Assembly: GCA_023374045.1 (NCBI GenBank)
Contig: CM041779.1
Location: forward strand, 301,392,167 to 301,456,166
Direction: 5' to 3'
DNA: 64,000 bases
Origin: Limonium bicolor
Lineage: Eukaryota > Streptophyta > Magnoliopsida > Caryophyllales > Plumbaginaceae
The notes under the pieces were generated by a model. That model saw only the letters and a list, made by a program, of their open reading frames with translations, made no database searches and was not told where the DNA came from. The first letter of the stretch is position 1. Each line of letters begins with the position of its first letter. This document shows, one piece after another, positions 20,580-64,000 of this stretch. The translations under genes were made by a program, and so were the position numbers.

Positions 20580-20645
20580 ATGTTCAGACGCGACTAAATT
20601 ATCTACAGAAGTTCGGCGTTTTGAAGGGAAAAGAGGGAGAAATCC

Positions 20646-20652
20646 TATATAA
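20646..20652 (+). promoter_or_regulatory. TATA box of the Athila-like LTR
   Basis: TATATAA in the context tcctatataagtgacc. About 40 nt downstream begins a CA/CT-rich stretch typical of a retroelement 5' leader, so transcription probably starts near 20680. Confidence 0.65.
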
Positions 20653-21684: not shown

Positions 21685-21702
21685 TGGCGCCGTTGCCGGG
21701 GA
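21685..21702 (+). promoter_or_regulatory. Primer binding site of Athila-like copy B
   Basis: TGGCGCCGTTGCCGGGGA starts three bases after the LTR end. It is the primer site characteristic of Athila-like elements and is complementary to a tRNA 3' end other than the initiator used by the chromoviruses here. Confidence 0.92.
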
Positions 21703-21990
21703 CTTGACTTTGTCAAGTCCTTTGCCCTGGTTGTCAATTGTTTTTACTTTATTTTATTTGCGCTATTTATTTCCTTTTTGTTTTAATTCGATTATAGTCT
21801 AATTCTGCGTTTGCTAGTTTTGTTTTGATTTTCAAAAAGTTTTGAATTTATTTTGTTTTGAACAATTGTGCTTTATTTACATTCAGCATAATCGTAGTTG
21901 TTTATACGCATTTTAATTTGTTTTTGTTCGGTGTTCATACCAATACTAACTTAAAAATTTCGTGTTTTATTTGTGTAACTGTGCAGGTGT
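21703..21990 (+). other. Leader between primer site and gag (copy B)
   Basis: T-rich non-coding sequence of about 290 bases with no motif I recognise apart from a weak splice-acceptor-like ttgtgtaactgtgcag near 21986. Confidence 0.5.
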
Positions 21991-24694: not shown

Positions 24695-24730
24695 ACTCAA
24701 AACTCTCCCTTCAAATCTTAATATGCTTTC

Positions 24731-30056: not shown

Positions 30057-31352
30057 TTCCTTTTAGTTTATTTGCGTTGTATTTTTCTTTATTTTGCTTT
30101 TAGTTTGTTCTTCTCTTGAACTACAAGAACTAGTTGTCACTAATGTGATGCTTCTAGCATACTTCTCTGTTTTGTTTGTTGAATTTGTGCAAGTATGCTT
30201 TACCGTGATGATTCCATGCCGGACACTTGCTTGGAAGCAAGTGTGAGGAAACATTCTCCCCTACCAGGACACTAAGTGTGAGGAAGAACCTCTTCCTCAA
30301 TCAATCACAAAAGAATCAGGGGAGTTTTCAGTTTCCTTTCTTTATGGTTTATGTTCGGCCCATGCTTTAACGTGTTATAACTTTGTAACTCTTCACTTCC
30401 ACCCTTGTGAGTCTGACACATTTAGTACGATCTTTTTCTTGTGATAATTTTCTGAACAATGAGGACATTACTCCTCATTAAGTGTGAGGAAGGGGGAGAT
30501 CTTTCTGAATGTGTCAGCCATTTATTTTGCATCTCACACTAATTTTTGATTGGTCTTGGGCTATATGGGGGTAGGTTCCTTGGAGTGCTTCTATGTGTTG
30601 AATACTTGGGTGGATCTTTCGTTGTGGAGTCGAGTCCAGTGATGACTTTAAGGATTGGTTTTGCTCAAAGCTGTGTGTTTTCGTATTTTGGAAATGATTG
30701 AATTTTGGTAAATGTCTGTGGGCAAGTTAGTTGTGGAGTCAGAACTGGTTTAACCTGGAACCTTGGGAATGATGAGAATGACTGGAATGAAGGATAAAGG
30801 CAAGGTACTCCTATGATCTGAGTTATTTTCTGAACCAAAACAGGCCTCTTCCATCCGGTTATTATGTCCTTGGGATGCTTCATCACCCATTTACCTAAGA
30901 TCATCTGATCTGGGATAAAAGACCCAATACCGTTACAAGGATGGAGAGAAATGTCTGGGGGATGAATTATTTACGCAAAAAATTAATATATATGCAAAAA
31001 GAAAAAAAGAGGAGGCTCTTTAAAGTCTTATGTTTATGGCAAATCCTTTAATTAGATCATGATTACGTGGTGTTGAAAGGTTCTGCGGAATTATGGCAGT
31101 ACTTCACACCCCTTGTCATCCACGGGTTTGAAAAGAGAAATGGTTGGAAGGTTCTGAGTTACTCTATGTTTTGACTTCGTGATCTGAATTCCTCATAATC
31201 TTTTGTTTTAAAAGCGTGCTTCATTGTTTAAGAGACATGCAGTCAAGAGCAGATCGATTCTAGGGTTGTTATTATGACTTGACTCCCTTTTATTTTGTGC
31301 GAACCCAAGGTTTGGTACTAAGGCATTTTGAGGTATCTTACTCCTGCTTTGC
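30057..31352 (+). other. 3' untranslated region of copy B
   Basis: It matches 18664-20044 of copy A, including three of the four AGTGTGAGGA phrases. The polypurine tract and its upstream hairpin are missing because a deletion starts at the hairpin loop. Confidence 0.75.
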
Positions 31353-32152
31353 TTGAGGGTTTTTCTTCCTTAGATGAATTCTCTTTTGATTGTATTTATT
31401 CGCTTCTTTGTAATGTCTGGCTAGTAGGGATTAACTCTGGGGAAGGGCTGTTCACGATGGATACAATTTAGTAGGGATGCTACAATTTGATTATGGGATT
31501 GTAATGGATTATTTCTAGGTTAATGTTAATCATTCATCTTCTCTATTAAATTTGCGCATTTATAGAGTCATTTTGCGAATCCTATTAGGAACAGACAAGG
31601 TGACTAATAGGAAGTTCGAATTAACCTGGAGATTTGGGGAAAGATTAGTCAGATAGATAATTTTCCTACAAAAGCTAATAATTCTTCGTGCGTATTCCGC
31701 CTATATGTGTTTTGCCAGCTTCTAGACTAGAGTTGACATGTTATGATAGGTGAGCTCTTCCTTTAACTAAGATTTAGGATCGAAGAGAGTTCAAGAATTG
31801 GCCTTTCCGTTTCTCATAATTGAATTGTAGGTTTGGCTAGATTTATCCAGCAAAGAACAGCCAAACCCGGAGTTCCATTCACTTTACCAACTTTAACATT
31901 TACTTTCATTAATCATCCGTAAAACTTTGATTTGCGTTTTCTTAATTCAGTTGCAAAAACAATTCACAACCCCCCTAAATTTCCAGTTTTCTTAGGACTT
32001 AGGCTTATTTATTCAAGTCCCGTGGTTCGATACCTGGTTACTTAATTTCCTATACTATAGTGACCTGCATTTTTGCAACCCGGCAGGCTTTTTGTTTTAT
32101 TATTTCTAGGTTTGTCAATTTAGTTTTAGTAGAGCATTTTTCCCTGTTTGCA
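31353..32152 (+). repeat. Truncated 3' LTR of copy B
   Basis: It matches 20884-21681. A deletion of 839 bp, relative to copy A plus LTR, joins position 20050 to 20890 at a shared TTGAGG. It removes the polypurine tract, the dyad array, the TATA box and half of the LTR. The end CCCTGTTTGCA is intact, and ctata follows as the right flank. Confidence 0.88.
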
Positions 32153-33413: not shown

Positions 33414-34274
33414 CAGAACCGTAGGGTATAAAGCAGCACCCATGGCGGCCTTGATAGCATATCGCAGTCCGCCTCTAAATTTCTCCACTTTCACAGTATC
33501 AGAATAAACAACTCCTGAGACAAGTCCAACAGCCCAATGAATGAGGAGTAGTACTGATCTACTGTCAGACTACCCTGCCTCAGAGCCTCGAACTCCTCCC
33601 TCTTCCTCTGCTTCAAGTAAGCAGGATAGTACTTTTCCCTCAGCAATTCCACAAAACCTGTCCAACCAAAACCCTCTATAGTAATGTAATGTGCCCTCAC
33701 GGACCTCCACCAAGTGCTGGCGGCGTCCCTCAGATGAAAGGCTGCTATACCGACCCGGTGCTCAGCAGGCACATGAATGGCATCAAAGGCCTTCTCGTGC
33801 TCGATGATGTATCTCTCCAGGACGGTGGGGTCAGCTACTCCGTCATAAGTAGGTAATCGCATGTCAGCAACGCTCTTTAGCCAGTTTGGCTCTCTCGGTG
33901 CGGGTACGGGTGGGACTACGGGTGGTGCTCCTATCTGGCCACCTCCCATCAGGGCTAGCTGAGCAAAGACGGCAGCTACCGTCTTAGCCATGCCCGCGGC
34001 ATGGGTCTCAGGAGGTCCTCCTCCAGACCTGCCGCCTCCACCTCTGCCTCTACCAGCTGATCGTCTTCCAGAAGACATCTGAAGAATTCAGAATCAAAGT
34101 CAACATTTGGTATAAATACCGTACTTTTCTCAACCATAAGTTCACATAGCCCTAAAAGGCGTAAAACACATTGTCCCCGACAATCTCCTAACTCAAAATC
34201 GTTAACAACTTCCTCATTGGTACTGGTATGTGAATCACCTAGGCTCACGGTACTTAAACTACTATCTCTTGTAA

Positions 34275-34301
34275 TCAGAGCGGTACTCCGCTCTGATACC
34301 A
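34275..34301 (-). promoter_or_regulatory. Primer binding site with overlapping hairpin (minus strand)
   Basis: Minus-strand TGGTATCAGAGC (34301-34290) lies five bases from the LTR end. Bases 34296-34275 form the stem TCAGAGCGG/CCGCTCTGA with loop AGTA. The closing pair is G-C, where the LARD element has A-T and the element at 57039 has T-A. Confidence 0.9.
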
Positions 34302-34306
34302 CTTTT

Positions 34307-36776
34307 TGTAACACCCCTACTAATCCGGCTCCTAGTTATAATATAAACGTCGTACTTAATAAGTAAATCGCAACAGTAAATAATAGACTGTCGCTCTAAT
34401 GGTGTCACTGTTATCACTCGCCCATACGGGTGATAAAGTTACATGATAATCAACATACGAAACGTATTCCCGCAGTGACCACAAGAGATAGATAGTAGTG
34501 CTTAAACAATTTAAAAAAACAACAACACACACCATTATTACAAACCGTACACGTGAGCGTCTAAACAACATACACCTCGGTTTACAAACCCGAGTCAAAA
34601 ACAACAGTAGTCTCATACCGTACCAAGTCTAAACAAAAGTAACCACAACTGTCGCGCCCCGCGTCGACCCACCAGCTAGTCTCCTGAAATAAAAATGGTT
34701 TGTGGTATGGAATCAGCCCCTGCTGAGTATGTTATCACATGCCCCGTCATGCCTCCTCAAACCCCTCAATTAATTGGTCGAGAGCATGAAATTTGTTACA
34801 TGCAATACCCTTTTTATATTAAAACTGTAAAACAATTAACAGTAATATCCATACAATAACACAACCATCAATACACATAATATAAACCACACAACATAAC
34901 CAGTGAACAACAAGGCGAACCAAAGAGAATAATAAACAGTATTAACTCCCGTCCTTGGTATAGAAACCAATATTGTTCGCCAATGTACAAGTCTCAACTG
35001 TAATAAATGTTCAGTTATACCTAATGACAACGTCTCGTTAAAACGACGTGTCTCTAATTTACCCATATACTATGGCGGGTCACCCACGGCAATAGCCACT
35101 CCAGCGGTAGAGTCTCTGACCAACGAGCCATCCTAGCTCACGGGAAATTTCCTTGATACTTGCGGACCCGTACGCGGACATCCTAGTATCGTTTTTGTGA
35201 TCACAGCGCGCACCAAGAGCCATATCCTCTTGGCTTTGTTATGTTTAATTAATATACCATCGCATCGCATTACAAATTTTTCTAACACAGCAGACTAAGG
35301 TCGTTAGTCCAATCCGGAGTCTGTAAACTCGGGATCCAGTGTTAGATATGAGAGCGGCGTTTAGAAAGGCCAGTGCTTCGTATTAAAGTCTCGGATAATA
35401 TGTATATCTTATTATCCTAGTGCTACAACGTTTTTCTGACGATCCTTATATTGCATATAAGATAGCACCACTGCCGCTAGTTCGTTTTATATATAGGTTC
35501 ATATATACGAACCAATACTGTTAATACAATAACAGTATATAATAAGCAGTTGTAAATATACAGTTCATGCATATTTATTCACACATTCAGACAAATAATG
35601 TTATCACAGATCACACAGAAGTCTGAACTGAGGAAGCCCTCATAGACAATCAGAGACACGTAAACACATACCGTACACCCGGAATGTATAACCGTGGAGT
35701 ATGAATCAGCTAGATCCGATGCTCCCCATGTCATCTCTAGTAGTCTAACAAAACATAACGCTACTGATTAGAATCCCGTATAACAACACAACTCTACGGT
35801 ACCCCGTACCGTCACTAATACCTCCTGGTTGTTAACTGTCAACGTTTGTCGGTTTTCGGCTTAACTCGGATTTGGAAAAACGTTATATTACATGCGTAGT
35901 CTCATCTTGTATATTAATATACTTAGTGTTTGAACTTTGTCATCGCATGTAACTTAATATACCCTTGTATATTATTTAGTTTGTTTCTATTTTGCATGTA
36001 TAATTCTTATCATATATTATACATTTCACCCTTGCATTTATTTTTCTAAGGTTTGTTTTTTTCCAAATTTAATGGAGTATAATTCTTATGTAAAAATACC
36101 TTGGATTATATATACATCCTTATTATTTCATGTATACTCCTAACATTAGAATTTCCATATCTATTTTTGTAATTCTTTCCTCTTTATCTTATACCATTTT
36201 AGTTATCATAATATATAGTTATTAAACCATATTACATTTTTCCACTCCATAACATATATTTATTTATATACATGTATTATGGGACTATTTATTATATGGT
36301 AAGTCTTTATAATATATTCATTATCTTTAATGAATATTCTTATATTATAAATGTTACACCCTTATAACATTAAAACCAATTATAAATTTGTATTTAAAAA
36401 TGCCCATATTACCGAACAACACCTATTTTCTCAAATATTTACAAAATCCACCACATATTTTATATATTTTTATATTATAGTTATATAACATATATTATGA
36501 CATTTATGTCATCAAAACAATTATAACTTATAGTTATATATTGTTAATAAATACCAAACAACCCATTAAACTTTCGGTTTTTATTTTCAACCACTAAACT
36601 TCTATAAATCACAAATCTAACCCAATTTATAATACATAGTTTTCTAATGTCATTAAAACTATATATTATACATATATCTTTAAAACCTTATATATAACTC
36701 CAAAATTCCCAAACTATATACAAAAGGTTATAAATATTATTCCTAAACTTATACTTCCTATAATTCTCGGTTTTTT
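34307..36776 (-). repeat. 5' LTR of the minus-strand chromovirus, 3' part
   Basis: Read on the minus strand it ends GGGGTGTTACA next to the primer site. The outer part (35.9-36.8 kb) is very AT-rich. It stops where the palindrome begins, and I take 46392-48606 as its other half, giving an LTR of about 4.7 kb. I did not find the 36-nt dyad module in either half. Confidence 0.72.
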
Positions 36777-39700
36777 ACCAGCCTTTTACTCAGTGCAGAT
36801 GGAACAACCATCCACTTAGCCACAAGCGAGAGTCGAGAGTGGACTTAAACCTCCCAACGACAAGTTCCTTCACTGACTCACATTCCCGTGGCCAAATGCC
36901 TCGGTCGAATGCCAGGCTGCAGCTCAGACTGTGTCAACTCCGTCCCTCTCCCTGCAGCCCGAGTACTTGTGCGTCCCTTAGCGGCCGCACTCGTCCTCGG
37001 TACCGTCGGGCCTCCAACAGTCCAACAGCCAAAGACCCCAACTAGTACGAGTCAGTAAGGTGTGCTAACGCGGACCACGTCGCACCCTGTCTCCACCCTG
37101 TTCCAGGACTCAACACTTGACGAACCGTCAGACGGCTCTGATGTGCAATGCCCCTTGCACCTTTCGTGGCAGGAGTCATACAATCAGGATGACCCTTAGT
37201 TGCCTCGTGCCAGTGGTCACACTAGCACTCGCAACCTAAGGGCGGTATTGACCACAAAGTGGTCATTACCTCTTGGAGTCGGTACCAAGCCATCCTGGGG
37301 ACCCATGCTCACACGCTTGCCCCGTCCCCTTCAGGCCCGGGCGGTGCCTTCCACAGCACCCGTTAACTGACCTAAGGGTCAGCAATGAGCACAACATGCT
37401 CAGACTATTGGAGTCGCTACCAAGCCACCCTAGCAGCATGCATGCTCAAGGCACATCCGGTCCTCATTAGGCCCGGACAGATGCCCTCCACAGCATCCGC
37501 AAACACGGCCCTCGCTTGAGTCACAAGCTGACGCAACTCAGCTCGGCCCTGACATCCTCTAGTTGCTTCGTGCCCGTGGTGACACTGGCACTTGCAACCT
37601 AAGGGCAGCACTAAGCACAATGTGCTCGTGCTATTGGAGTCACTACGAAGCCACCCTGGTAGTGTGCATACCCGAAGGCATACCCGGTCCTTACTAGGCC
37701 CGGATGGGTGTCCTCCACAACACCCGCTAACTCAGCCCTCGCTCGAGTCACAAGCTGGCGCAACTCAGCTCGGCCAAGACTAACGCAACGTGCCCTTCAA
37801 CTGATGCCCATCCCTCGGACCTTCGTCCTTAGGGAGTCTCAAGGACCGTGGAACTTAAGGGGTAGGTCAAAGCGACAATCAAGTATGGGGTTGACAAGCA
37901 ATCCCAACATAAGTCTTAACGGGCACCAACCAAAGGGCAAACTGGCATGGAGCTACTTGTAACCAAGCAGCTCGCCAAAGGGGCATGACAAACCTCCCCC
38001 ACCGAAGCTCTTGCCGTCCCCGGCAAGATACAGCAATGAGTCTTAGCTCAGCTAAGGAGATTTCATCATGCTCCAACAGCTTACCTACTTTTGAAGGTAT
38101 AACACCCACAGACAATGTCTTTGACCAACACCCACAGGCAACTGCCTTGAACCGTTAACCGGTGTGTTTCCCAAAGCTCAAACATTTTTTACTTCTACAA
38201 CGTTCTACTTGAATGGATCATCGATTTATAGAGCGCCACACCATTGGTGGTGTTTTGTGTATTTTCTTTGCGACACTTGCTACTTAGTGCCCTATTTCTC
38301 AAACTGTTGCGACGTCCTGAGTCCTTCCATTCGCATCGCAATGACACCAAGTGAACAACCAACATGTTGCTGCGACATCCTGAGTCCTTCCATTCGTGGC
38401 GCGGCAACATTTTGATGATGCTGTGCAGTAACGGGTTCCCCATGTCTCCTCGATGTTCAATGTCCTTAATCCTTCAATTCTCATTGACACTTACTGCACA
38501 GCTTGTCATCGGCGGCATCAGCCCTGATAAGCTAAGCCTTGGCTGGCTGTGCCGACTCTTGTGCAGAATTTGCACGAGTGACGAAGACCCTGACAGGTCA
38601 ACGTCTGCACGCCAGATGGCGTTTCCTCTTTGGCTACACCCGAGAAACAACCACCTCAAAGGAACCAAGTAGTTTAAGTGCTAAGCACCTAACCACGAGA
38701 CGAAGGGCAACGTCGAAGCCATAAGAAGGAACTTCCCCACTGGTCCTGGGACGCAAGTGCGTCTCCTGCTATATTCAAGTACTGTAAAAATTCCCTAGGT
38801 TCCCTCACCTTAGTGAAGCCCTGGGCCGAAGCCACACTGCACCTAAAACTCCGGGACCTTCCACAGGCATGGGGCCCTGAAGAGGACCACACCACTTCCT
38901 GCTAAACTGCGCGATATAGTCACTATCGCGGCACCGCAAGGCACTTGCAAGTGCACCCAACACTTGGTAGCACAAAGCCACATCGGGTCTCAAGTCCCAT
39001 TTTGAGCCAAAGGTAGTTTGGGTTAGATCACATCGCTAATTCTGCTCTAGGTCACCATGGCTAGCGAAGCTTTCACATAGAACCACATGACTAAGCGAAT
39101 TAGATTCACAGTACAAGCAGTCCGGCTAGAAAGATGGGCCAATCAGCCCCAGTTTCAACTTGATACGGCAACAACATCCCCAACACTTAATTCTGGTGAG
39201 GACATCTTAAGCTCACGCGGTCAAAGTCTACGAAGCCTAGTCGTGGACTTATGACAACCCTTGAATCAAGTTTTGAACAGCATCCGCTTTCAACACAAGG
39301 AAGAAAGGGCAAGGTTGTTATGGGAGCACCCCTAATGTGCCTCCTTATCAGGAGCATAGGTTGTCCACCCTTAATTGGAACGAATCTTCCAATTTACGAG
39401 GAGTTCCAAGAGTTTCCTAGGACCGTGGGGTTTACCCTTCCGCACCTCAGATCTCGTATCACATCCGATTCACCGCAGGTTTAGAAGGTCTCTCCTCACT
39501 AGGAGGAAACCAAGCTAACGTCCAATTTTACTTAGAACCACGTATGCACCTTACCACAAAGAGTTTGCGAAAAGGCTACTTTCTCATGAGCTTACATGCT
39601 CATTTCCCGATAGTAGGACCAATTGAATCCCCATCACGTATCTAAGGCCAACGTTGGCCCCGTTCCAAAAGAACACCACTTCTTGGTATCACCTCTTTTA

Positions 39701-41507
39701 CTAGGTTCCCTTTTCCAACTAACCCTGGAGCTCAGGGGACTTAGGTCATTGCCACAACAACCTTGTCTACGGATTATCCGCAAGATTTTGTTGGCGACAT
39801 GACCTTGTTATCGGCCTAACAGCCCATAACAAACCACGACGTCCTAGAACGTCAAATCCACCAACACGCTCCGACAGCTTACCCACACAGTAGGCTCGCT
39901 TGGTGAAGTGACAACACCGATCGAGGTATGGGAACGAACTAGTCCTTGGCTTACCAGCCTTTGACCGGTCCACAAGAATACCTAGTTGGACAAGCCAACC
40001 CTCAAGGAACCCAACAACAACCTCAAATTGCTATGATCAATCAAGGGGACCGATTCTCTCTTCTAAAGGCGCGTTCACCCTCAGATTCGGTCTCTTGAAG
40101 CTTAAACCAGAATTCAGTGTGTCTTACATCTAAGGCTAACCCATCGGTCTCTCATAACATTATGCGCATCACCGCGTGAACCTTTAGCTCAACACGAATT
40201 ACCACATCTCAGTGGCGGGTCCGGACCGCAATAACCAAGTTGTTTGACGCGCACTGCCAATAGGTCAACACCAAGTCATCCATCAACTACCCAAAGATGG
40301 TTGAACCTACCGAACACAGGTTTACACCCGGAGTTCGAGGACTCACCGGCAACGTCAAAAACACCTATGGTTTTGACTTTCGCCAGCAACGGCAGGGGCA
40401 AGAACCCATGTCAAACGCTTTGCTCGATCAATCCTTCGTTGCAACCGTTAAGCCAAACCTCTGTTGACCATCTAGAACCTCAACACGATTCATATCCATA
40501 AATGAACCGAAAGGCTAAGATTGACCAGCATCTCTAAAGGTTCATCAAGCGACTTTAGCAACGTTCCAACAATGTCCTTTAAGACCTGCCTGTCTTGCTA
40601 ACGTCCCAACAACGGAGCGATGCTCCTACGGCAGCTTGGGCCTCACCCAGCAGCCTACAAATAGTCATCCGATCTGACACCGCTAGGCCAAGCCTAAGAT
40701 CTGAATCGTTGACCTCTAAGGGGACAAGGCTCAGCTCAGGCCTTCGGTCTGAACGGCCACAAGCCATTCTGCGAGACTGGGTTTGCAGCCAGCACCTAAT
40801 CCACGTCGGCTCCAACAAGCTCATTTACAACAACATGAGATCAAACTTCTTTCATTGCAGCTTCAAGTGAAGGCAAGAAAGAAGAACTCAAGGTAAGCCC
40901 ATAAGGGTTGTACCTAGGTGTGAAAGTACACACGATCGGCATGTTGCAAGAGACTACCATCCCTACTCGTAGGGTCATACAGACAACTTCTCTTCCGAAC
41001 ACGCGAAAGGTCTCAAACCCACGCTTGTTCGAACCAACTTGACATCTAACCCCGCACACCTGACCTTGTCATTGGGCAAACACTCTCGTAGAGTTTGCAT
41101 GACACTTCAACGTACGAGCAAGTTATCCCGATCCCATCAAGGACTGAACAGGATGAGCCAACCTTCAGGAGAAGGATCTTTTCCGACTTAGACAAATGAG
41201 TCAACCTACGAAAGTAGGGTCTCTTTGCTAAAGGCATTCAAGAACCCATTTGCAGTCTTTGACTAAGGATTAGTAAACCTTCCTTCGAAGGATCTTTTCT
41301 AACTAAGTCCATCACAAGTCGGGCTAACTCATAGCTTAGCCTCGTCCTAACCCTTCCCCAATGAGACCATTACAGCAAGGGTATTGGTTTAAGCCTAACT
41401 TGAGTTAACTCAACCCATGAAATTAAGTCACAACGGTAAACTAATAGGTTTCATCAAAGCCTTCATCCCAAACTAACTGTCCGAATGGAATCAACAACAA
41501 CAGCCCG
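36777..41507 (+). repeat. Left arm of the giant palindrome
   Basis: Contains three diverged units of roughly 140-230 bp around 37265-37790 (each with ggagtcg.taccaagccaccc and a tccacagcacccg phrase) and three copies of a ctgagtccttccattcg phrase or its variant at 38315-38490. No protein motif recognised. Confidence 0.85.
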
Positions 41508-41519
41508 TTGTGACCAAGG
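41508..41519. other. Loop at the centre of the palindrome
   Basis: Twelve unpaired bases, ttgtgaccaagg. On the right side the adjacent ttg run has one more triplet than the left-side caa run. Confidence 0.85.
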
Positions 41520-44500
41520 CGGGCTGTTGTTGTTGTTGATTCCATTCGGACGGTTAGTATGGGATGAACTTTGATGAAACCTATTTGTTTGCTGTTGTGA
41601 CTTAACTTCGTGGGTTGCGTTGACTGAAGTTAGGCTCGATCAAATACCCTTGCCGTAATGGTCTCATTGGGGAGGGTTCGGACGAGGCTAAGCTATGAGT
41701 TAGCCCGACTTGTGATGGACTTAGTTAGAAAAGATCCTTCGAAGGAAGGTTTACTAATCCTTAGTCCAAAGACTGAAATGGGTTCTTGAATGCCTTTAGC
41801 AAAGACCCTACTTTCGTAGGTTGACTCATTTGTATAAGTCGGAAAAGATCCTTCTGCTGAAGGTTGGCTCATCTTGTTCAGTCCTTGATGGGATCAGGAT
41901 AACTTGCTCGTACGTTGAAGTGTCATGCAAACTCTACGAGACTGTTTGCCCAATGACAAGGTCAGGTGTGCGGGGTTAGATGTCAAGTTGGTTCGAACAA
42001 GCGTGGGTTTGAGACCTGTCGCGTGTTCGGAAGAGAAGTTGTCCGTATGACCCTGCTAGTAGGGATGGTAGTCTCTTGCAACATGCCGATCGTGTGTACT
42101 TTCACACCTAGGTACAACCCTTATGGGCTTACCTTGAGTTCTCCTTTCTTGCCTTCACTTGAAGATGCAATGAAAGAAGTTTGATCTCATGTTGCTATAA
42201 ATGAGCTTGCTGGAGCCGACCAGAATTAGGTGCTGGCTGTAAACCCAGTCTCGCAGAATGGCTTGGGGCCGTTCAGACCGAGGGCCTAAGCTGAGCCTTG
42301 TCCTCTTAGAGGTCAATGATTCAGATCTTAGGCTTGGCCTAGCGGTGTCAGATCGGATGACTATTTGTCGGCTGCTGGGTGAGGCCCAAGCTGCCGTAGG
42401 AGCATCGCTCCGTTGTTGGGACGTTAGCACGATCCGATGTTCAAACATCTTCGTCTCTTGATCAGTGACGAACGTTTTGAAGACTAGCAGGTCTTAAAGG
42501 ACATTGTTGGAACGTTGCTAGAGTCGCATGATGAACCTTTAGACATGCTGGTCAATCTTAGCCTTTCGGTTCATTTATGGATATGAATCGTGTTGAGGTT
42601 CTAGATGGTCAACAGAGGTTTGGCTAAACGGTTGCAACCAAGGATTGACCGAGCAAAGTGTTTGACATAGGTTCTTGCCCCTGCCATTGCTGGTAAAAGT
42701 CAAAACATTGGTGTTTTCCGCGTTGCCGGTGAGTCCTCGGACTCCAGGTGTAATCCTGTTGGTAGGTTCAACCATCTTCAGGTGGTTGATGGATGACTTT
42801 GTGTTGACCTATTGGCAGTGCGCGTCAAACAACTTGGTTATTGTGGTCCGGACCCGCCACTGAGATGTGGTAATTCGTGTTGAGCTAAAGGTTCACGCGG
42901 TGATGCGCACAATGTATGAGAGACCGATGGGTTACCCTAAGATGTAAGACACACTGAATTCTAGTTTAAGCTTCAAGAGACCGAATCTGAGGGTGAACGC
43001 GCCTTTAGAAGAGAGAATCGGTCCCCTTGATTGATCATAGCAATTTGAGGTTGTTGGGTTCCTTGAGGGTTGGCTTGTCCAACTAGGTATTCTTGTGGAC
43101 GGGTCAAAGGCTGGTAAGCCAAGGACTTGTTCGTTTCCATACCTCGATCGGTGTTGTCACTTCACCAAGCGAGCCTACTGTGTGGGCAAGCTGCCGGAGC
43201 GTGTGGTGGATTTGACGTTCTAGGACGTCGTGGTTTGTTATGGGCTGTTAGGCCGATAACAAGGTCATGTCTCCAACAAAACCTTGCGGATAATCCGTAG
43301 ACAAGGTTGTTGTGGCAATGACCTATGTCCCCTGAGCTCCAGGGTTAGTTGGAAAAGGGAACCTAGTAAAGGAGGTGATACCAAGAAGTGGTGTTCTTTT
43401 GGAACGGAGCCAACGTTGGCCTTAGATACGTGATGGGGATTCAATTGGTCCTACTATCGGGAAATGAGCATGTAAGCTCATGAGAAAGTAGCCTTTTTGC
43501 AAACTCCTTTGTGGTAAGGTGCATACGTGGTTCTAAGTAAAATTGGATGTTAGCTTGGTTTCCTCCTAGTGAGGAGAGACCTTCTAAACCCTGCGGTGAA
43601 TCGGATGTGATACGAGATCTGAGGTGCGGAAGGGTAAACCCCATGGGTCCCAGGAAACTCTTGGAACTCCTCGTAAATTGGAAGATTCGTTCCAATTAAG
43701 GGTGGACAACCTATGCTCCTGATAAGGAGGCACATTAGGGGTGCTCCCATAACAACCTTGCCCTTTCTTCCTTGTGTTGAAAGCGGATGCTGTGTTGAAA
43801 CTTGATTCAAGGGTTGTCATAAGTCCACGACTAGTCTTCGTAGACTTTGACCGCTTGAGCTTAAGATGGCTTCACCAGAATCTACTGTTGGGATTTTGTT
43901 GCCGTATCAAGTTGAAAATGGGGCTGATTGGCCCATCTTTCTAGCCGGACTGCTTGTACTGTGAAATCTAATTCGCTTAGTCATGTGGTTCTATGTGAAA
44001 GCTTCGCTAGCCATGGTGACCTAGAGCAGAATTAGCGATGTGATCTAAGCCCAAACTACCTTTGGCTCAAAATGGGACTTGAGACCCGATGTGGCTTTGT
44101 GCTACCAAGTGTTGGGTGCACTTGCAAGTGCCTTGCGGTGCGCGATAGTGACTATATCGCGCAGTTTAGCAGGAAGTGGTGTGGTCCTCTTCAGGGCCCC
44201 ATGCCTGTGGGAAGTCCCAGAGATTTAGGTGCAGTGTGGCTTCGCCCAAGGCTTCACTAAGGTGGAACCTAGGGAATTTTCTAACAGTATTTGAATATAG
44301 CAGGAGACGCACTTGCGTCCCAGGACCGGTGGGGAAGTTCCTTCTTATGGCTTCGACGTTGCCCTTGTCTCGTGGTTAGGTGCTTAGCACTGAAACTACT
44401 TGGTTCCTTTGAGGTGTGTTGTTTCTCGGGTGTAGCCAAAGAGGAAAAGACCCATCTGGCGTGCAGACGTTGACCTGTCAGGGTCTTCGTCACTCGTGCA

Positions 44501-46278
44501 AATTCTGCACAAGAGTCGGCACAGCCAGCCAAGGCTCAGCTTATCAGGACTGATGCCGCCGATGACAAGCAGTGCAGTAAGTGTCAATGCGAATTGAAGG
44601 ATTAAGGACATTGACATCGAGGAGACATGGGGAACCGTTACTGCACAGCATCATCGAAATGTTGCCGCGCCACGAATGGAAGGACTCAGGATGTTGCAGC
44701 AACGTGTTGGTTGTTCACTTGGTGTCATTGCGATGCAAATGGAAGGACTCAGGACGTCACAACAGTTTGAGAAACAGGGCACTAAGTAGCAATGTGTCGC
44801 AAAGAAAAGACACAAAACACCACCAATGGTGTGGCGCTCTATAGACCGATGATCCATTCAAGTAGAACGTGGCAGAAGTAAAAAATGTTTGAGCTTCGGG
44901 AAACACACCGGTTAACGGTTCAAGGCAGTTGCCTGTGGGTGTTGGTCAAAGACATTGTATGTGGGTGTGTATACCTTCAAAGTAAGTAAACTGTTGGAGC
45001 ATGATGAAATCTCCTTAGCTGAGCTAAGACTCATTGATGTATCTTGCCGGGGACGGCAAGAGCTTCGGTGGGGGAGATTTGTCATGCCCCTTTTGGCGAG
45101 CTGCTTGGTTACAAGTAGCTCCATGCTAGTTTGCCCTTTGGTTGGTGCCTGTTAAGACTTGTGTTGGGATTGCTTGTCAACCCCATACTTGATTGTCGCT
45201 TTGACCTAGCCCCTTAAGTTCCACGGTCCTTGAGACTCCCTGAGGACGAAGGTCCAAGGGATGGGCATCAGTTGAAGGGCATGTTACGTTGGTCTTGGAC
45301 GAGCTGAGTTGCGCCAGCTTGTGACTCGAGCGAGGGCTGAGTTAGCGGGTGTTGTGGAGGACACCCGTCCGGGCTAGTAAGGACCGGGTATGCCTTCGGG
45401 TATGCACACTGCCAGGGTGGCTTGGTAGTGACTCCAATAGCACGAGCATACATTGTGCTTAGTGCTCCTTAGGTTGCAACAGTGCCAAGTGTCACCACGG
45501 GCACGAAGAAAACTAGAGGATGTCAGGGCCGAGCTGAGTTGCGTCAGCTTGTGACTCAAGTGAGGGCCGTGTTTGCGGATGCTGTAGAGGGCATCTGTCC
45601 TGGCCTAATGAGGACCGGATGTGCCTTGAGTATGCACGCTGCTAGGGTAGCTGGTAGCGACTCCAATAGTCTGAGCATGTTGTGCTCAGTGCTGACCCTT
45701 AGGTCAGTTAGCGGGTGCTGTGGAAGGCACCTGCCCGGGCCTGAAGGGGACCGGGCAAGCCTGTGAGCATGCATGTCCCCAGGATGGCTTGGTATCGACT
45801 CCAAGAGGTCAATACTGCCCTTAGGTTGCGAGTGCTAGTGTGACCACTGGCACGAGGCAACTAAGGGTCATCCTGATTGTATGACTCCTGCCACGAAAGG
45901 TGCAAGGGGCATTGCACATCAGACCGTCTGACGGTTCGGCAAGTGTTGAGTCGTGGACAGGGCGGAGACAGGGTGCGACGTGGTCTGTGTTAGCACACCT
46001 TACTGACTCGTACTAGTTGGGGTCTTGGCTGTTGGACTGTTGGAGGCCCGACGGTACCGAGGACGAGTGCGGCCGCTAAGGGACACACAAAAGTCGGGCT
46101 GCAGGGAGAGGGACGGAGTTGACTCAGTCTGAGCTGCAGCCTGGCATTCGACCGAGGCATTGGCCACGGGAATGTGAGTCAGTGAAGGAACTTGTCGTTG
46201 GGAGGTTTAAGTCCACTCTCGACTCTTGCTTGTGGCTAAGTGGATGGTTGTTCCATCTGCACTGAGTAAAAGGCTGGT
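41520..46278 (-). repeat. Right arm of the giant palindrome
   Basis: Reverse complement of the left arm, including the mirrored units at about 45290-45800 and 44570-44780. It is 28 bp longer than the left arm from small indels. Confidence 0.85.
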
Positions 46279-57038: not shown

Positions 57039-60000
57039 TGAAATACCCCAAAATTAGATATGGTGTTTAAGTGATAAAATAAGTTATAAGGAGGCTAAAT
57101 AATGCCTTAGAAACATTAAAACATTTCTAATCAAAGAAAACATAAGGAAACACCAAAAGAGCAATTTAAGCGAAAACGTGCTCTAAGCTTGGAGAGACTT
57201 GGGTGAGCACCCAAATATTGTTCTTAGACCTTGGTAATATCCTAATGGTCATTTAAAACCAATTACCAAAGAAAACCAAGCTTGAAAACAAGTCAAAACA
57301 TAAAATGTGCTTTAAGGAGTCTTAAAGCACATTTTTGAAAAATTGTCTTGTAAATGGGTCTTGAGTGGCTAATGTCCATCATTACTCTTTAATCAATATA
57401 TGTACTAATTAGTATCACATTAGGAAGTCTAAATCAATGGGAAATCAAAAATTTCACAATTATGTGCCTTGTTTAGTGAATAGTAACCAAATAATGCTAG
57501 TTTAAGACATTAGTCAAAGTAAGTCAATTAAATGGTCAACAAAGACCACAATACACCTTGTTTGACTAAGGTGGCTGGTTTTAAGTGTGACTCACCACAC
57601 TTATCTAGCTAAGTAATGAATAAAGCAAAGTAAGTAAAAACACTATTCACCTTTAACATAAATATCTTACCTTTACTTACCTCTCTCCTCACCTCTTCAT
57701 TCTCTCTTGTTCCCACGGTTTTGAGCTGCTCCTCTCTTCTTCTCCAACGTGAAGAACAACCTCCATGCTAGCTCCACCTTCCTTTGATTACTACTTACTC
57801 ATTTTAGCTCCAAAACCAAAACAAAACACATATTCTTCTTAGTTAGCTCAAGCTCCTTCTTTCTATCTTTTCAAAACTTCAAGAGCCTCATTTTGGAGCC
57901 AAGGCAAATCGCCATTAGAGGAGGAAACTCAAGCTTGGAGACTCCATTAGCTTCTCCATTCTCTTAAGGTAAAGAATATGTAGAAAAATCTAGGTTTCCA
58001 TCATTCCATCCCTTGTCTGAAAATTTGTACTCATGGGACTCCATGTTTATGCCTTGTTCTAGCTTGTTTCCTACTCTCCAAAGGATAAAGGAGGTCCTTC
58101 TTGCTTCATATCCAAGCTTGCCTTGAGAAACCAAGGTAAAACAATCACCTTAATACCTTAAAGCACATTTTTGACCTAGGGTTTGTTCCTTAGGGTTAAT
58201 ATATTATCTAGCACTCATTGGAGTCATTGGATATTGGTTAGAACATTGGCAAGGAGAGTTTAAGTGGTGACCGAGATTGAGCAAGGAAAAACCTAAGGAA
58301 GAAAGTTTGCAAAGCTTGAAAAAGAACAGGTAAATTACTTACCTTAAGGTGTTTTATTGTTTAAGGGAATGGGATTTAGATATGTGATCAGTTTAGTGTA
58401 GAGTTTACATTAGAAAAGGCTATATATAACCTAGGAGAAACAATGATTATGATTGAGAACTTGTGACTAAGGAGCCAATGAGAAATAGATAGTCAAACAA
58501 TGTTGAAATGAATTACAAGAAGCATTTTATTTCAATGGGAGCCTTGTTGTGTGTATTCTCAGGTTAAATGCAAATATATGTGGAAATTCAGTGGTTAAGA
58601 TTATTGTCATTTAAGGGCCTAAGTGCCAAGCATTTTAAGTTTATACACTATATGATGATGTGGTGTAGTTTTGGTGTAAATTGTGTGTTAAGGTGTTGTG
58701 ATGAGAATTTGAGTGATCTTTGTTGTTTGATGGTGAAAAACCAAGTGTTGGGTGTAACAATATACTAGAGAACCCATGGCAAAATTTAGTGGAGAACCTA
58801 AGTGTTTAAGATGTTCTAAGGAGATTTCATGACTAAGGAAGTCTTATGAAGTTTTAGAGGTTGTCTTGATGAAAAAGGGTGGGTTTAAGGTGTATAATGA
58901 GTTAGAATGACCTAGACATGATCATGGAGGATTAGGAACCAAATGAATGTACTAGTGTATTTAGGACTTAGGCAAACATTGGTGAACTAGTAGAAAAGAA
59001 ATATGTGTTGGATGATGGTGTCATAAATTGGTGTAGGAACTTTAAGTAGTTGCATAAAGGAATTTTAGGTGGAGAAAGATGCTTGGGAGATGATGTTATA
59101 GTGGCGAGGAAGCTTTTGGCATAGTGGTTAAAATAGGTGTGAACCACCACGTAGAAACCTAAAGAGAAACATTACAAGTGTGGACATTATTGCAAGGAAA
59201 TAAATAATGACTAAGATGGATATTGATTGGTGAATTAAGGAGTTTAGTGGAGGGCTTAAGGTGTGTTTTAAATGCCCAAACAAGGTTAGACCATGCTAGG
59301 AAATGAGATAAGTGTTTAAGGATTTAGAAGATGGGTATTTTGGCCTGTCCGAACTTCCGTCCGAATTTGAAAGCTCGGACATGCCCTGTTGCAATTTAAT
59401 CTTCTGAGTCTCGGCCAGTGTCCGGACTTCCGTCCGACCTTAGAAGTTCGGACACTTGGAATTTTTCTTTTGGAATTTCCCTCGACTTATGTCCGAACTT
59501 AGGAAACTCGGACATATGTTCGGACACCTGAAACTTTTCTTTGAATTTTCCTTAACCTATGTCCGAACTTAGGGAAGCTTGGACACAAGTTCGGACACAC
59601 GTCTGATAGCACCCTTTGACTCTCGACCTATGTCCGAACTTGGGAAGCCCGGACACAAGTTCGGACGTGGTGCTGTTTTGGCCAAAAACTTTGTTTAAGG
59701 TTAGGAAATGGTGGGGATGATTAGGTATTGATGTTATAAGGCTATTAAGGACATGTTTGGTGGGTGTAATGGTCATTAAGTGGGTGAGTAAGTGTAATAG
59801 ATAATGGGGAAATGATGCACCTAAGAGTTAAGTTAAAACCATAAGGCTTTGTGAAAAAACAATGAGTAAAAGTTGATGTCTAGGGAGGCTATGTAATTGT
59901 ATTGAGTTGAATTGATTAATAACCTAAAACTAAATGAATGTTTTAGGATTGGTGAATTGGGACTTGGAAGGAGATAAACCAACAATCGTTGACGGTGAAT

Positions 60001-61171
60001 GGTACAATCTTTCTTGTGACCTGCTTGCTAACAAGGTGTCCCTCGGCTTGTGTGCTATCTGTTTACTTGCTATGACTAAGGCAAGATAAAGCATGCAACC
60101 GGTTATATTTGTTCTCGTTGTGTATGTGTTTTTCTTTACACTAACCCACGAGACTTGAGATTGTTACTAACCAAGTTTGGTACTTACTGAGTTAAGGATA
60201 AGAATTAAGTATTGGTGACTGTTGGTTAATACCCTTTAAGGTTTAACTAACCCATGGTTGTGTAGGATTTCTGCTTACTGGAACTTGAGTGAGGAAACCC
60301 GGGACTGACTCCGGTCATGCATGCTAAGGAAAGGGGGACGGTATCTGAATCAGATCCGCCCTCTGCTTAAGGACTGTCTTCGGACTTGTAGCCTAGGGCC
60401 GGTTGCCGGCTCAGCTACACTGGACTCCCGTCCAGGGTAGGTGGCATTAAGATGGTGCGGTAGGATCACCTAAATCCTAGGTTTGAGATAAGCTACAACC
60501 ATTTCCATTCTAGGAACGGTTTGTATACTGAATTAAGATAAGGATAAGACTGAGGTAGATAAGGAACTGAGGTTAAGGAAATCAGGACTAAGGAGGGGTT
60601 ACTAACCCGCTTGATAAGGGAAAAGCTTGTGTCGTTCATTGTGTGTGAACTATGTATGTTCATCTGTGGATTGTTGTTTATTGCACTTCATATCATGCTT
60701 GTGTACTTCATCAATTTCCATGCTATCGACAATTAGTCGTCGTAGCCCCGTTAGCTTGGGGGCCATGAGAGGGAGTACCAGCATTCGTGCTGACCCCTTT
60801 GGGGGCTGTTTTTACACTTGCAGGTAAGAGGCCCATGAAGTCGCCCGCGAGAGTAGGAGCGGTTTAGACTTAGGATGGGTTTGTTTATTTTGAGTACGGG
60901 TTGCGCGTTGTGCTCCCGTCTGTTTATATTGAAACTAATAAGTGTTGTGGCTATGACTTAGATACTTAAACTCGATTGGTGGTGGTATCTTGGATGGTGA
61001 TGTTTTGGTCGGTTTGTTTACTTTGGATAAGCATTGTAATTTATAAGGCCGGTATGTTTCTAACGATCAGACCGTGGCAAGTCCAGGTGTTTGTTATTTC
61101 CGATGTGACGAATTCGATTAAGTTTTTAAGTTTTTGTGATAACCACGATTGGCTTTGGACGGGGTGTTACA
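57039..61171 (+). repeat. 5' LTR of the AlkB-carrying chromovirus (4133 bp)
   Basis: Starts TGAAATACCCC, ends GGGGTGTTACA. A CT-rich leader-like stretch begins near 57675, about 640 bp in, as in the LARD LTR. The dyad array is at 59346-59667. A region with several short hairpins (ccggttgccgg, ctggactcccgtccag) lies at 60280-60440. No coding motif. Confidence 0.88.
59346..59667 (+). repeat. Array of five 36-38-nt dyad modules, 70-73 nt period
   Basis: Units start at 59346, 59419, 59490, 59560 and 59631. The first two are exactly 36 nt with GTCCG at 2-6 and 14-18 and CGGAC at 31-35. The last three have an extra CGGACA inside and are 37-38 nt. The sequence type (TGTCCGAACTT) is closer to the Athila-like arrays than to the LARD array, although this is a chromovirus LTR. 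Confidence 0.9.
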
Positions 61172-61175
61172 AAAG

Positions 61176-61202
61176 TGGTATCAGAGCGTAGTTACGCTCT
61201 GA
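61176..61202 (+). promoter_or_regulatory. Primer binding site with overlapping hairpin
   Basis: TGGTATCAGAGC at 61176-61187. Stem TCAGAGCGT/ACGCTCTGA with loop AGTT at 61181-61202. Confidence 0.9.
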
Positions 61203-62027
61203 TCAAGAATACCGGACATAAGAAACCACCGAGTTTAGGATATAAGTTAAGAATAAGTGACGGGTTAAGGGTGTGAGAAGTTAGAGTGAGTAGAGTCAGA
61301 TGACCACTAATAGTGTGGATCGTCTTACCGTCTACGGACGTTATAAATTCGTTAACCGAAACAGTGGTGGATACGAATCTAATGTGAGTGCGATTGTTCA
61401 TCTCAGGAAGGAGAGGCCAAGGCCGTCCAGAGGCGATGAGACTGAGATACCGGAGGGGTAGACGATCGCAGAGATCGTAGCTGCCACATTAGGGCATATG
61501 GGCTATCAGCCTGGTGTGGGTGCACCACCTCCACCGCCACACCCCGGAAACCGAATTGGGTGAAGAGTCTTGCAGACCTTCGACCCACACACTTTAAGGG
61601 GGAACCGATCCCGCCAAGCTTGAGGCGTATATCTCCGAGCTAGAGACCGCCTTCGAGACCCTTGACGTCCCTGCTGGGATCAAGGTGCGTCTGGCTGCTT
61701 TCTATCTGAAGGGGGCGGCAGCGATTGGTGGAAAGCTGGTGAGGGCCGAGCATGTGGCCAATCCGAGTTCGGCTGGGAGCAGTACACCGCCTTGCTACGA
61801 GCAAAGTACTACCCCGCCCATGTCTAGACGAAGAAGCGCTTGCAGTTGGATGCGCTTAAGCAGACCGACAAGATGACGGTGGACGAGTATTACTCAGAGT
61901 TCACCGCCTTGCTCCGTCTTCTGCCAGGTCTTGGATATTCAGACCAGATCCCGTGGACCGCTTCTATGGCGGGCTTAGCCATCGACTCCGCTACGGCATG
62001 GGGCCGACGAGTTACACTACCTTGCAG

Positions 62028-62112
62028 GTAATAAGAATGGTTGAGATTTGAGTAAGTAAATGAGTAGATTTAGATTATGGAAAATAAGAGTGACTAATAC
62101 TGTGGAAAGCAG
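62028..62112 (+). other. Intron 1 of plus-strand gag (85 nt)
   Basis: Exon ...accttgcag, donor gtaataag, acceptor ggaaagcag, exon gagtgctatcatgc. Phase 0. Same position and phase as 33413-33335 in the minus-strand element. Confidence 0.83.
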
Positions 62113-62359
62113 GAGTGCTATCATGCCGCTGCTAAGGTTGAGATAACCGTCCAGCTGAGGGACGAGGAGAATGCTAAGAGAAAGAGTGCCGTTAAGAGCA
62201 CGGAGCCAAGGGCAAGGTGGATACAAGAACAGAAGTACCAGCCTCAGGCCCAAAAAATCAGAACCCAAAAGGAAGGAGGAAAAGGAGAAGGCTCCGGAAG
62301 AGCCATTGAAGTTGACGTATGCTTACGCAGCTACGCCCCTGCGCTCTAGGGCGCCAAAG

Positions 62360-62437
62360 GTAAGGGATGGTATTGAGTGAGTTAAGAAACAATTAGTAAC
62401 CCGTTTGAGTATGAGTATTGATATTGTGAATGATCAG
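62360..62437 (+). other. Intron 2 of plus-strand gag (78 nt)
   Basis: Exon ...gcgccaaag, donor gtaaggga, acceptor aatgatcag, exon gatctgagac. Phase 0. It lies in the lysine-rich region, as intron 2 of the other element does, but the phase differs. Confidence 0.75.
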
Positions 62438-62702
62438 GATCTGAGACTGAAAAAGGAGCCGGTGGTGGCTACCAAGCGCGCTACATCTGTAGGTGGTGTC
62501 AAAGGACCACCCCGGGCTCGATTGCAGGGGAATAAGGTGGAGTGCAACTATTGTGGGTATACGGTCACCGAGCATACGAGTGTTTCCGGAACCCCGCTAG
62601 CAGAGCCTATAGGCCCGATACTAGGGGCAAGGGCAAGACCGATCAGGGAGCTGGATCTGACGGTCAGAGGAAGGTGCAGCAAGCTGCAGACAAGAACCCA
62701 CG

Positions 62703-62906
62703 GGTGACCAGAAGTCAGGACCCACACTACACTTGGTGGACCGGGACGATGAGCTGAACCCTCATCGAGGCCAGGGTACCGCTATAACCATTTAGTGATA
62801 AAACTACCTACTCTTACCGTATTATCATGCATGTTGGTGAATAATTGAGTTAAGTAAAATGAGATGAGATTAGAATTTAAGTAGACATAACCTATTACCA
62901 CTTTAG
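62703..62906 (+). other. Spacer or intron between zinc knuckle and AlkB-like domain
   Basis: AT-rich sequence from about gggtgaccag to ccactttag, with no coding motif. It ends like a splice acceptor right where the AlkB-like homology starts. A donor candidate is gtgacc at 62703. Inferred intron, about 204 nt. Confidence 0.45.
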
Positions 62907-63653
62907 GAAGCTTCAACATCTGCTATCCAATACCATTTACACCTAACCCGGAGCACACCGACATCGAAACCATAGACTTTTCAACCGAACAATGTCAGGT
63001 TTCTGCCGCCCAGGTATGATTTTATTAAGGGGGATACCTGACACCCGAAGCACAATAGCCATCATCAGAAGATGCAATCAACTAGGAATGGACGGGAGGT
63101 TTTTATACACCGGAGTACCCAGGGGGAGCAAGAATGAAGTTTAAAAATGATGAGCTTAGGCAAGGATTGGAATCCGTATGCCAAGAACTACCAACTACGA
63201 GGATGCAAGATGGAGTCTCACCACTGGGAATACCCGAAGAGTTCCATCCAGTTATTACACAAGTCGTGGAAATCGCTCAGCAGTTGAAAGCTGAACCGAT
63301 TCCAGACATTCAAGCAGACATTTGCATTGTGAACTTCTACGAGAAAGATGGGCGACTTTGACTACACCAGGATGAGGACGAGACAACGGAGTCTCTCGAA
63401 AGAGGGATACCCGTAGTGTCTTGGTCCATAGGGGCTGATGCACAGTTTTTTTATGCGGCGAGCAGAAGCGTGCGGACCGTGCAAATAAGTTGGTACTTAA
63501 GTCTGGAGATGTGTTAGGTATGGGAGGAGAGTCAAGGATGTTATACCCACGGATTAAGAGAATCAAGCTGAATACAACACCATCAGCAGTAATCAATGCG
63601 ACACTCATGAGACCGGAAGATTAAACCTAACCTTTAGACATATAGACATGTGA
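62907..63653 (+). pseudogene. AlkB-like 2-oxoglutarate/Fe(II) dioxygenase domain inside a retrotransposon
   Basis: AlkB-family enzymes remove methyl groups from bases of DNA or RNA using Fe(II) and 2-oxoglutarate. Readable phrases, in family order: FNIC; CRPGMILLRGIPD; the substrate-side GGFYTPEY; GKDWNPYAKNY; PLGIPEEFHPVI; DICIVNFYEKDGRL; the iron-binding HxD as LHQDEDE (His 63365-63367, Asp 63371-63373); GIPVVSWSIGADAQFFY; LKSGDVLGMGGESRMLY with a CAC for the distal His at 63548-63550, out of phase; and GRLNLTFRHIDM with the 2-oxoglutarate arginines, ending at TGA 63651-63653. The order and phrases resemble the plant AlkB-like oxygenases of the At3g14160 type, about 230 residues here. At least four frameshifts and a TGA just before LHQD break it. 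It is in sense with gag and protease and lies between them. Confidence 0.85.
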
Positions 63654-63838
63654 TGTTAGAATGAGATGAGGAATGAGATGTAAGATTAAAGCACATGTTG
63701 TAAACAGGATGGTTATGAATAAAATAACAGTGTTGTTCATATAATTGTTTCGACTCTTGTTATAAACATCAATACTCATGAAGCTTATGAATACTATTAG
63801 GTTATGGGCTCTGTACGGAAGGTGCGTTAGCATACTTA
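63654..63838 (+). other. Spacer or intron between AlkB-like domain and protease
   Basis: AT-rich, no coding motif, ending in gcatacttacag directly before protease-side coding sequence, so probably an intron end. Confidence 0.45.
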
Positions 63839-64000
63839 CAGAGGCACAGGCCGACGCCAGCGGTAACTATCGCTCACACCGGCACCTTTCCGTTAATGGG
63901 TTGAGGCATCAGTTCTCTATTTCGACTCAGGGGCCTCGCATACCTTTGTCTCGGCATCTTTCGCGAGCAGGTTGGGGCTAGACGCTGATGAGCTGCCCAA
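63839..64000 (+). pseudogene. Aspartic protease start of the AlkB-carrying chromovirus (runs off the window)
   Basis: It begins with EAQADASG-like linker sequence, then HTGTFP, and after a one-base loss near 63890-63900 the active-site block FDSGASHTFVSASFA (catalytic Asp 63924-63926) and GLDADELP. FDSGASHTF is the typical retropepsin motif of chromovirus polyproteins. The enzyme would release Gag and Pol products. Reverse transcriptase and integrase, which would fix the clade, lie beyond 64000. Confidence 0.85.

Follow-up and report, generated by a model that had tools for sequence, protein, structure and literature searches.

Introduction

The closest described relatives of the locus analysed here are elements of the Gypsy_Pa_2799 type in Phalaenopsis, published in 2022, which bear a 2-ODD/AlkB domain (PMC9289625). 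According to the accessible part of that paper, a screen of 121 angiosperm genomes recovered the AlkB domain from two Phalaenopsis only, and in the open-access PMC literature it is the sole report that we found of AlkB in a plant LTR element. Plant LTR elements are described, in the available sections of a second source, as generally without introns (PMC12786077), and EVADE, BARE1 and Ogre are known to regulate Gag or the polyprotein by splicing (PMC12786077, PMC8892269, PMC6317226).

Here we analyse a window of Limonium bicolor DNA, by which we mean the whole stretch of 64,000 nucleotides, for which an AlkB-like segment had been predicted within a Ty3/gypsy element. We conclude, with a probability of about 0.78, that the window holds a broken copy of a Ty3/gypsy element from an abundant family with a three-exon gag, in which a captured ALKBH1-type segment serves as an alternative last exon and one splice donor leads to three outcomes. 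The conclusion builds on features read from the genomic sequence: the domain and its place in the order, splice sites and phases that are conserved, the two alternative junctions, each in two subfamilies, frames open across them in the copies fetched, selection on AlkB and young copies. Present-day splicing of RNA at these sites, as judged from DNA copies, would follow the same pattern, and translation of a Gag-AlkB protein is presumed.

Results

An AlkB exon between gag and protease

The original prediction described a nearly complete AlkB domain on the same strand as, and between, the gag zinc knuckle and the start of the protease. Both the domain and its position were confirmed, with the qualification that the reading frame is broken (Table 1). 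The predicted coordinates were near exact, the first base of the segment being the first past the acceptor TTTAG^GAAGC and its last base closing the stop codon after the LTFR motif. The segment is bounded by splice sites that lie at the same places in two subfamilies of the element and in the window copy.

Table 1. Features of the AlkB-bearing element in the window (^ marks exon-intron boundaries; L011 is an open copy from elsewhere in the assembly).
Feature	Position	Strand	Basis or remarks
Part of 5' LTR	59346..61171	+	3' end mapped; terminal TTACA directly before the primer binding site
Primer binding site TGGTATCAGAGC	61176..61187	+	exact string
gag exon 1, degenerate	61542..62027 (3' end mapped)	+	tblastn with L011 gag, 31-64% in pieces
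Intron 1, 85 nt, GT..AG	62028..62112	+	TTGCAG^GTAATA .. AAGCAG^GAGTGC; position common to subfamilies A and B
gag exon 2	62113..62359	+	46% to L011 exon 2
Intron 2, 78 nt, GT..AG	62360..62437	+	splice-site reading
gag exon 3 with zinc knuckle	62438..62775	+	knuckle residues read; knuckle at ~62540-62600
Intron 3, 131 nt	62776..62906	+	retention would end Gag
AlkB exon, ALKBH1-type 2OG-Fe(II) oxygenase, broken here	62907..63653	+	terminal stop codon; open relatives, e.g. L011
Spacer	63654..63800	+	ends at protease-exon acceptor ATTAG^GTTATG
Start of pol exon, protease FDSGASHTF	63801..64000, continues beyond window	+	63897-63998 matches RVP_2, E 6.8e-6

The translated and Pfam searches that had been proposed for this segment matched the plant ALKBH1-type chain 5XEG and the 2OG-FeII_Oxy_2 family. 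When the pieces were searched separately against Pfam, the family was matched at 63086-63358 (E 2.2e-4), 63362-63514 (E 6.7e-3) and 63439-63621 (E 2.4e-8), the last alone of the three exceeding the curated cut-off, while the piece at 62947-63141 had no Pfam match. Against 5XEG, which we take to be rice ALKBH1 (its record reads 2OG-Fe oxygenase family protein), the same three pieces aligned in order to residues 39-136, 138-172 and 165-221 (E 6.4e-9, 8e-7 and 1.7e-7) and the piece at 62947-63141 to residues 8-47 (E 0.0038), all four overlapping stop-to-stop pieces being collinear with the rice chain. The AlkB frame shifts several times and contains a stop at 63359-63361; because the pieces lie in different frames and are interrupted by this stop, the window copy is unable to make an AlkB protein. 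A protein search with a 91-aa window piece, under a length rule that excluded full-length relatives, gave no match, which does not speak for absence. Scans of viral contigs yielded no relative.

The primer binding site is presumably of the initiator tRNA-Met type, and in copy L022 a match of 571 bases between its two LTRs ends at the boundary equivalent to the 3' end of the LTR. The window piece at 61828-62028 matches Retrotrans_gag in Pfam (E 4.4e-5), zinc knuckles number two each in copies L011 and L032, and the 2 kb past the end of the window are 71% identical to the pol of L011 over 676 aligned positions.

Other repeats are also found in the window. The segment at 36777-46278 (9.5 kb) matches its own reverse complement at 93.9% and is a large palindrome, a fold-back element or an assembly artefact. 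An LTR element at 419-13868 has an LTR-like pair of 4.2 kb (95.6% alike), and its neighbour at 13872-31358 has an LTR-like pair of 6.2 kb (98.1% alike) and RT-integrase frames. Tandem units of ~70 bp with palindromic TCCGAAC/GTTCGGAC motifs occur at 59346-59666 in the LTR of the AlkB-bearing element, and similar text is present in other elements at 16598-16776, 20313-20443 and 27888-28066.

Copies, subfamilies and age of the element

The 2.92 Gb assembly was searched with PF13532, and at least 150 places were scored from 38,325 first-look candidates. The AlkB domain was without internal stop in 149 of the 150 places listed, and a 26-base pattern across the exon-3 donor of subfamily A occurred at 6,431 places in the whole assembly (<=2 mismatches; control 0). 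On these two counts, the gag-AlkB-protease arrangement is no accident. At ~10 kb per copy, the family would make up about 2% of the genome.

Twenty of the 150 listed places were taken as 10-kb stretches, and since these copies had been picked for AlkB, it was their flanking content that served as the test. Within 2.5 kb of AlkB, gag sequence lay on the upstream side in 18 of the stretches (the exceptions being L019 and L024) and protease or RT on the downstream side in all 20; the primer binding string was present in 15. The expectation that other copies would carry AlkB at the same place was thereby borne out, which supports the original reading, and a host-type AlkB is a fixed part of the element family.

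Copy L011 contained matches above the Pfam cut-offs to Retrotrans_gag, AlkB, RVP_2, RVT_1, RNase H, Integrase_H2C2 and Tf2-1-like SH3, with gag, protease, RT, RNase H and integrase in the order of Ty3/gypsy elements. The integrase core was not among the listed Pfam matches of this one copy, and its Chromo match (E 2.4e-4, 21.4 bits) was below the Pfam cut-off of 25.1. The element is of the Ty3/gypsy type, with features that resemble those of chromoviruses.

Partial LTR pairs from the same copy were matched in L022 and L026, where substitutions number 4 in 571 positions and 5 in 901, which indicates that some insertions are young; at typical plant substitution rates, the L022 insertion would be roughly 0.3-0.5 million years old. 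Two subfamilies, A and B, are ~70% identical in AlkB, and the window copy represents a third lineage with 69% DNA identity to A and 67-68% to B in the longer segments. Synonymous divergence among A copies (L004-L028) was 0.13 for AlkB, 0.28 for RT and 0.76 for gag exon 1, an unevenness that may reflect the choice of copies by AlkB score, or recombination. Four AlkB copies at G000:C1:497439466-497470353 lie ~10.1 kb apart on one strand, apparently as a tandem array of the element.

Introns and splice sites

Gag is interrupted by short GT..AG stretches whose positions agree between A and B. In A, 14 of 14 copies had the exon-3 donor as well as the acceptors of the AlkB and protease exons; in B the two acceptors were present in 6 of 6 copies and the donor in 5 of 6. 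Exon 3 ends on one codon base and the AlkB and protease exons both open with two (as read in L003, L001 and L008), so that, the splice phases being equal, either acceptor can be joined in frame to the one donor. With intron 3 retained, a stop is reached 3-15 codons past the donor, as was the case in 20 of 20 further copies whose donor is intact. At 38-42% pyrimidine in 45 nt, against 53-56% for the protease exon (one A copy and one B copy), the AlkB acceptor seems weak. Intron 2 was exactly absent from L015, L029, L032, L036, L038 and L042-L046, and among these L015 had been picked for AlkB alone.

The window contains a second chromovirus gag at 33491-34335 on the minus strand (gag 34087-33491), which is truncated and by eye has a similar layout of exon 2 and zinc knuckle; no AlkB was found at this gag. 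Since its layout suggests the same introns, introns 1 and 2 may predate AlkB.

Predicted junctions are present as genomic DNA

If the RNA is spliced, DNA copies of the spliced form are to be expected now and then from a retroelement. The junctions were first predicted from the splice-site reading and then searched across the whole assembly, with reversed patterns as controls; these yielded 0 matches in every junction search. The A junction of exon 3 to protease, in which AlkB is skipped, was found at 17 places with <=2 mismatches, of which the 13 with <=1 mismatch were counted as credible while the four with two mismatches may be unspliced acceptors. The A junction of exon 3 to AlkB was found at 12 places. 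As pattern matches, the corresponding B junctions occurred at 3 places (exon 3-protease, one exact) and 11 places (exon 3-AlkB, four exact), and the A exon 1-exon 2 junction at 428. Each alternative A junction is rare, at ~0.2% of the unspliced A count, and the places are partly non-independent, with three pairs and one trio lying 9-11 kb apart.

Twenty A junction copies were examined, comprising 10 of the 17 skipped and 10 of the 12 gag-AlkB places. The frame was open through the junction in all 20, with an open length that varied, most copies being decayed. The junction peptides were SSRP^GCALGTGG for Gag-protease and, in most copies, SSRP^GTFNICYP for Gag-AlkB. In L032, which is without all introns, an open frame of 570 codons runs from gag into protease, with 427 codons upstream of the junction and 143 downstream, and L045, without introns 2 and 3, has 417 open codons to the AlkB stop, of which the last 246 are the whole of AlkB.

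The copies differ in which of the other introns are missing. Introns 1 and 2 were both absent from 4 of the 10 skipped copies and both kept in the other 6. Among the gag-AlkB copies, L042-L046 are also without intron 2, L039-L041 retain introns 1 and 2, L048 retains intron 2 (its intron 1 is unreadable) and L047 is without introns 1 and 2 and contains an additional CAG, consistent with use of the other AG in a TAGCAG tandem acceptor. Such a mixture of precise intron losses is what is expected of reverse-transcribed splice products. The precise junction copies in two subfamilies place the introns, as read from DNA, within a coding unit whose product is changed by their removal.

The AlkB enzyme and the selection acting on it

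The AlkB frame of L011 (253 aa) matched 5XEG with E 1.9e-70 and 240 bits over query residues 37-252. The same query scored 76-83 bits against E. coli AlkB and 45-47 bits against human and mouse ALKBH1, and no ALKBH5 chain was among the 21 PDB sequences with E<=1e-4. Public proteins with E<=1e-5 numbered 1,186, of which 120 were listed. The named proteins among the matches listed were from plants, and several were called 'DNA N6-methyladenine demethylase' or ALKBH1C/1D-like, at ~50% identity. Closest among the matches listed were four unnamed proteins, P0001-P0004, with 59-71% identity to the element AlkB. By sequence, the element AlkB is of the ALKBH1 type.

When the 120 listed proteins were placed in a tree with 6 element copies, the latter clustered with P0001-P0004 in a single long-branched group, separate from the remaining 116 proteins; re-rooting displaced the support values (62 to 100), which should not be relied on. 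P0001-P0004 perhaps represent the same element family in other plants. A further protein, P0121 (Artemisia), was element-type by score and was rejected, since it has a tandem AlkB and is host-like by reading.

All seven cofactor-type residues (HxD..H for iron, R..R for 2-oxoglutarate) were present in 20 of the 23 readable copies among 42 scanned. The 19 unread were L026, L027, the ten copies in which AlkB is skipped and seven gag-AlkB junction copies that are decayed; the scan is crude, since L027 has a long AlkB frame. No gag-AlkB junction copy among the 10 fetched came through the active-site scan, and in L045 AlkB is open but the C-terminal motif is altered.

Substitution ratios between A and B were calculated as dN/dS. 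For AlkB the ratio was 0.107 (96 pairs; dS 1.75, near saturation), for protease 0.115 (50 of 67 pairs) and for gag 0.165 (8 of 53 pairs), RT and RNase H-integrase being saturated in this comparison. Within the two subfamilies the ratios were 0.149 and 0.122 for AlkB, 0.169 and 0.123 for RT and 0.313 and 0.549 for protease, values that, like the intactness and active-site counts, are biased because the copies were chosen by AlkB score. We conclude from the substitution patterns that purifying selection acts on AlkB, and the comparison across copies that had been proposed as a check turned out accordingly, at 0.107 between subfamilies.

Discussion

A proposed splice switch with an enzyme exon

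We propose that the products of the element are set by the use of a single donor. Retention of intron 3 would yield plain Gag, splicing from the exon-3 donor to the AlkB acceptor would yield Gag-AlkB, ending at the AlkB stop, and splicing to the protease acceptor with AlkB skipped would yield Gag-Pol in frame. The unspliced RNA would be the genome that is normally copied, and spliced RNA would be copied occasionally, leaving precise junctions in DNA. Fusion to Gag would bring AlkB into the virus-like particle, beside the genomic RNA and cDNA, where it may strip N6-methyl (or other alkyl) groups from the cDNA or RNA of the element; removal of the methyl groups would keep host marking or damage from stopping replication. 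Given the enzyme class, N6-methyladenine in cDNA or DNA is the favoured target, with RNA nearly as likely. The whole proposal, a three-way switch between Gag, Gag-AlkB and Gag-Pol combined with a particle-packed, ALKBH1-type N6-methyladenine eraser that is made as a Gag fusion and acts on cDNA or genomic RNA, is tentative, and we would put it at clearly less than even odds.

Alternative explanations

That a host AlkB pseudogene was inserted by chance into one copy of the element would suit the broken state of the window copy. However, AlkB is open and in the same arrangement in many copies, in two subfamilies as well as the window lineage, and is under purifying selection; the intact copies refute a chance insertion, to which we assign practically no weight. 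Bacterial contamination was likewise rejected, given the plant LTR context. A different history, in which copies without AlkB and introns are the ancestral form and both were added later, bears on the protease-RT tree (35 rows, three of which are second copies of the same place). In this tree, seven of the 10 fetched skipped copies (L029, L031, L034-L038) form a basal grade in A, as such a history would have it, and some AlkB-less copies could by this grade share one old AlkB-less lineage. The outgroup B, however, has AlkB and introns at the same places, and three of the skipped copies (L030, L032 and L033) are placed among copies that bear AlkB. Six of the 10 skipped copies also retain introns 1 and 2, and there are gag-AlkB copies without intron 3 alone, without introns 2 and 3, or without all three, one of them using a tandem-acceptor AG. 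Later addition is on this evidence very unlikely. Since the outgroup bears AlkB and some skipped copies nest among AlkB-bearing ones, AlkB was probably present in the common ancestor of A and B and was lost several times later by splicing.

The remaining alternatives concern what is made and what it does. AlkB might be translated alone, as is thought for ORF2 of the orchid elements, the in-frame junction with gag being incidental. AlkB is ended by its own stop, and the orchid precedent is, in the accessible text, a separate ORF (PMC9289625). Against this, splice phase 1 is common to exon 3 and AlkB in those A and B copies that were read, and genomic copies of the gag-AlkB junction are present, 10 of the 10 fetched from A having an open frame across it, so that we regard separate translation as improbable, if less so than the late addition of AlkB. 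Instead of 6mA in DNA, the enzyme may target RNA (m6A, m1A or the like) or serve in alkylation repair. In the parts of the sources available, the orchid enzyme demethylates m6A in RNA in vitro (PMC9289625), ONSEN mobility is promoted by an RNA demethylase of Arabidopsis (PMC12786077), and a role of ALKBH1 on tRNA is indicated by a cited title. The nearest named relatives listed nevertheless include 'DNA N6-methyladenine demethylases' of the ALKBH1C/1D type, which are names and not assays, and ALKBH5 is missing from the PDB matches given above. Action on RNA or in repair is a serious contender, falling only somewhat short of an even chance.

Significance

In the open-access PMC literature, subscription journals being mostly outside that search, we found neither a chromovirus with an AlkB exon nor a three-way splice switch described. 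A gag split by introns with AlkB as an alternative terminal exon appears, on this search, to be new. The original prediction had noted that AlkB is not a standard domain of plant LTR elements, and this holds true, with one orchid precedent according to the accessible text (PMC9289625). If our reading is true, the element represents a second capture of AlkB by a plant LTR element, apparently independent of that in orchids, with another class of AlkB and seemingly in another lineage, which would suggest that the control of transposons by methyl-adenine is contested time and again in plants. Through the alternative exon, an LTR element would have a novel means of balancing Gag against Gag-Pol and of coupling an enzyme to Gag, and the element would be a mobile element with a particle-borne epigenetic eraser. 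It is disputed whether 6mA serves any function in plant DNA, and a transposon that keeps an ALKBH1-class eraser under selection would make this question testable.

Comparison with known systems

Plant RNA viruses of the Alpha- and Betaflexiviridae and Closteroviridae also represent mobile or viral genomes with AlkB, in the available text (PMC9289625), but they are RNA viruses and are likened here by description only. Plant ALKBH1-type proteins (5XEG and ALKBH1C/1D-like) share with the element AlkB ~50% domain identity, the cofactor-type residues and the C-terminal LTFR, and their FDIC-like motif is kept (NIC); the element AlkB differs in a shorter linker before the HxD strand and in grouping with P0001-P0004 on a long branch of its own.

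The orchid Gypsy elements are, like the present element, plant Ty3/gypsy elements with a captured AlkB oxygenase whose conserved cofactor residues have been kept through many copies (PMC9289625). As far as the accessible text goes, they are relatives of Tat/Ogre of ~25 kb with gag-pol in one ORF, and their AlkB is of the ALKBH5 type at the C-terminus of a separate ORF2 of 565 aa (PMC9289625). The present element, in contrast, has chromovirus features, three gag exons and putative alternative splicing, and its ALKBH1-like AlkB exon lies inside the gag-pol unit, between gag and protease, a layout unlike that of the orchid elements.

For the splicing itself, the available parts of the sources offer two comparisons. 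In Ogre, also a Gypsy element, an intron is removed from part of the transcripts, allowing the whole polyprotein to be made, but this intron lies between gag-protease and RT, there is no AlkB exon and the element is not a chromovirus (PMC6317226, PMC12786077). In the Ty1/copia element EVADE (EVD), alternative splicing sets Gag against Gag-Pol through shGAG, as is proposed here, with the spliced RNA encoding a short Gag and the unspliced RNA Gag-Pol (PMC8892269, PMC12786077). In the present element, by contrast, it is Gag-Pol that would need splicing, and one of the splice choices would give Gag fused to an extra enzyme.
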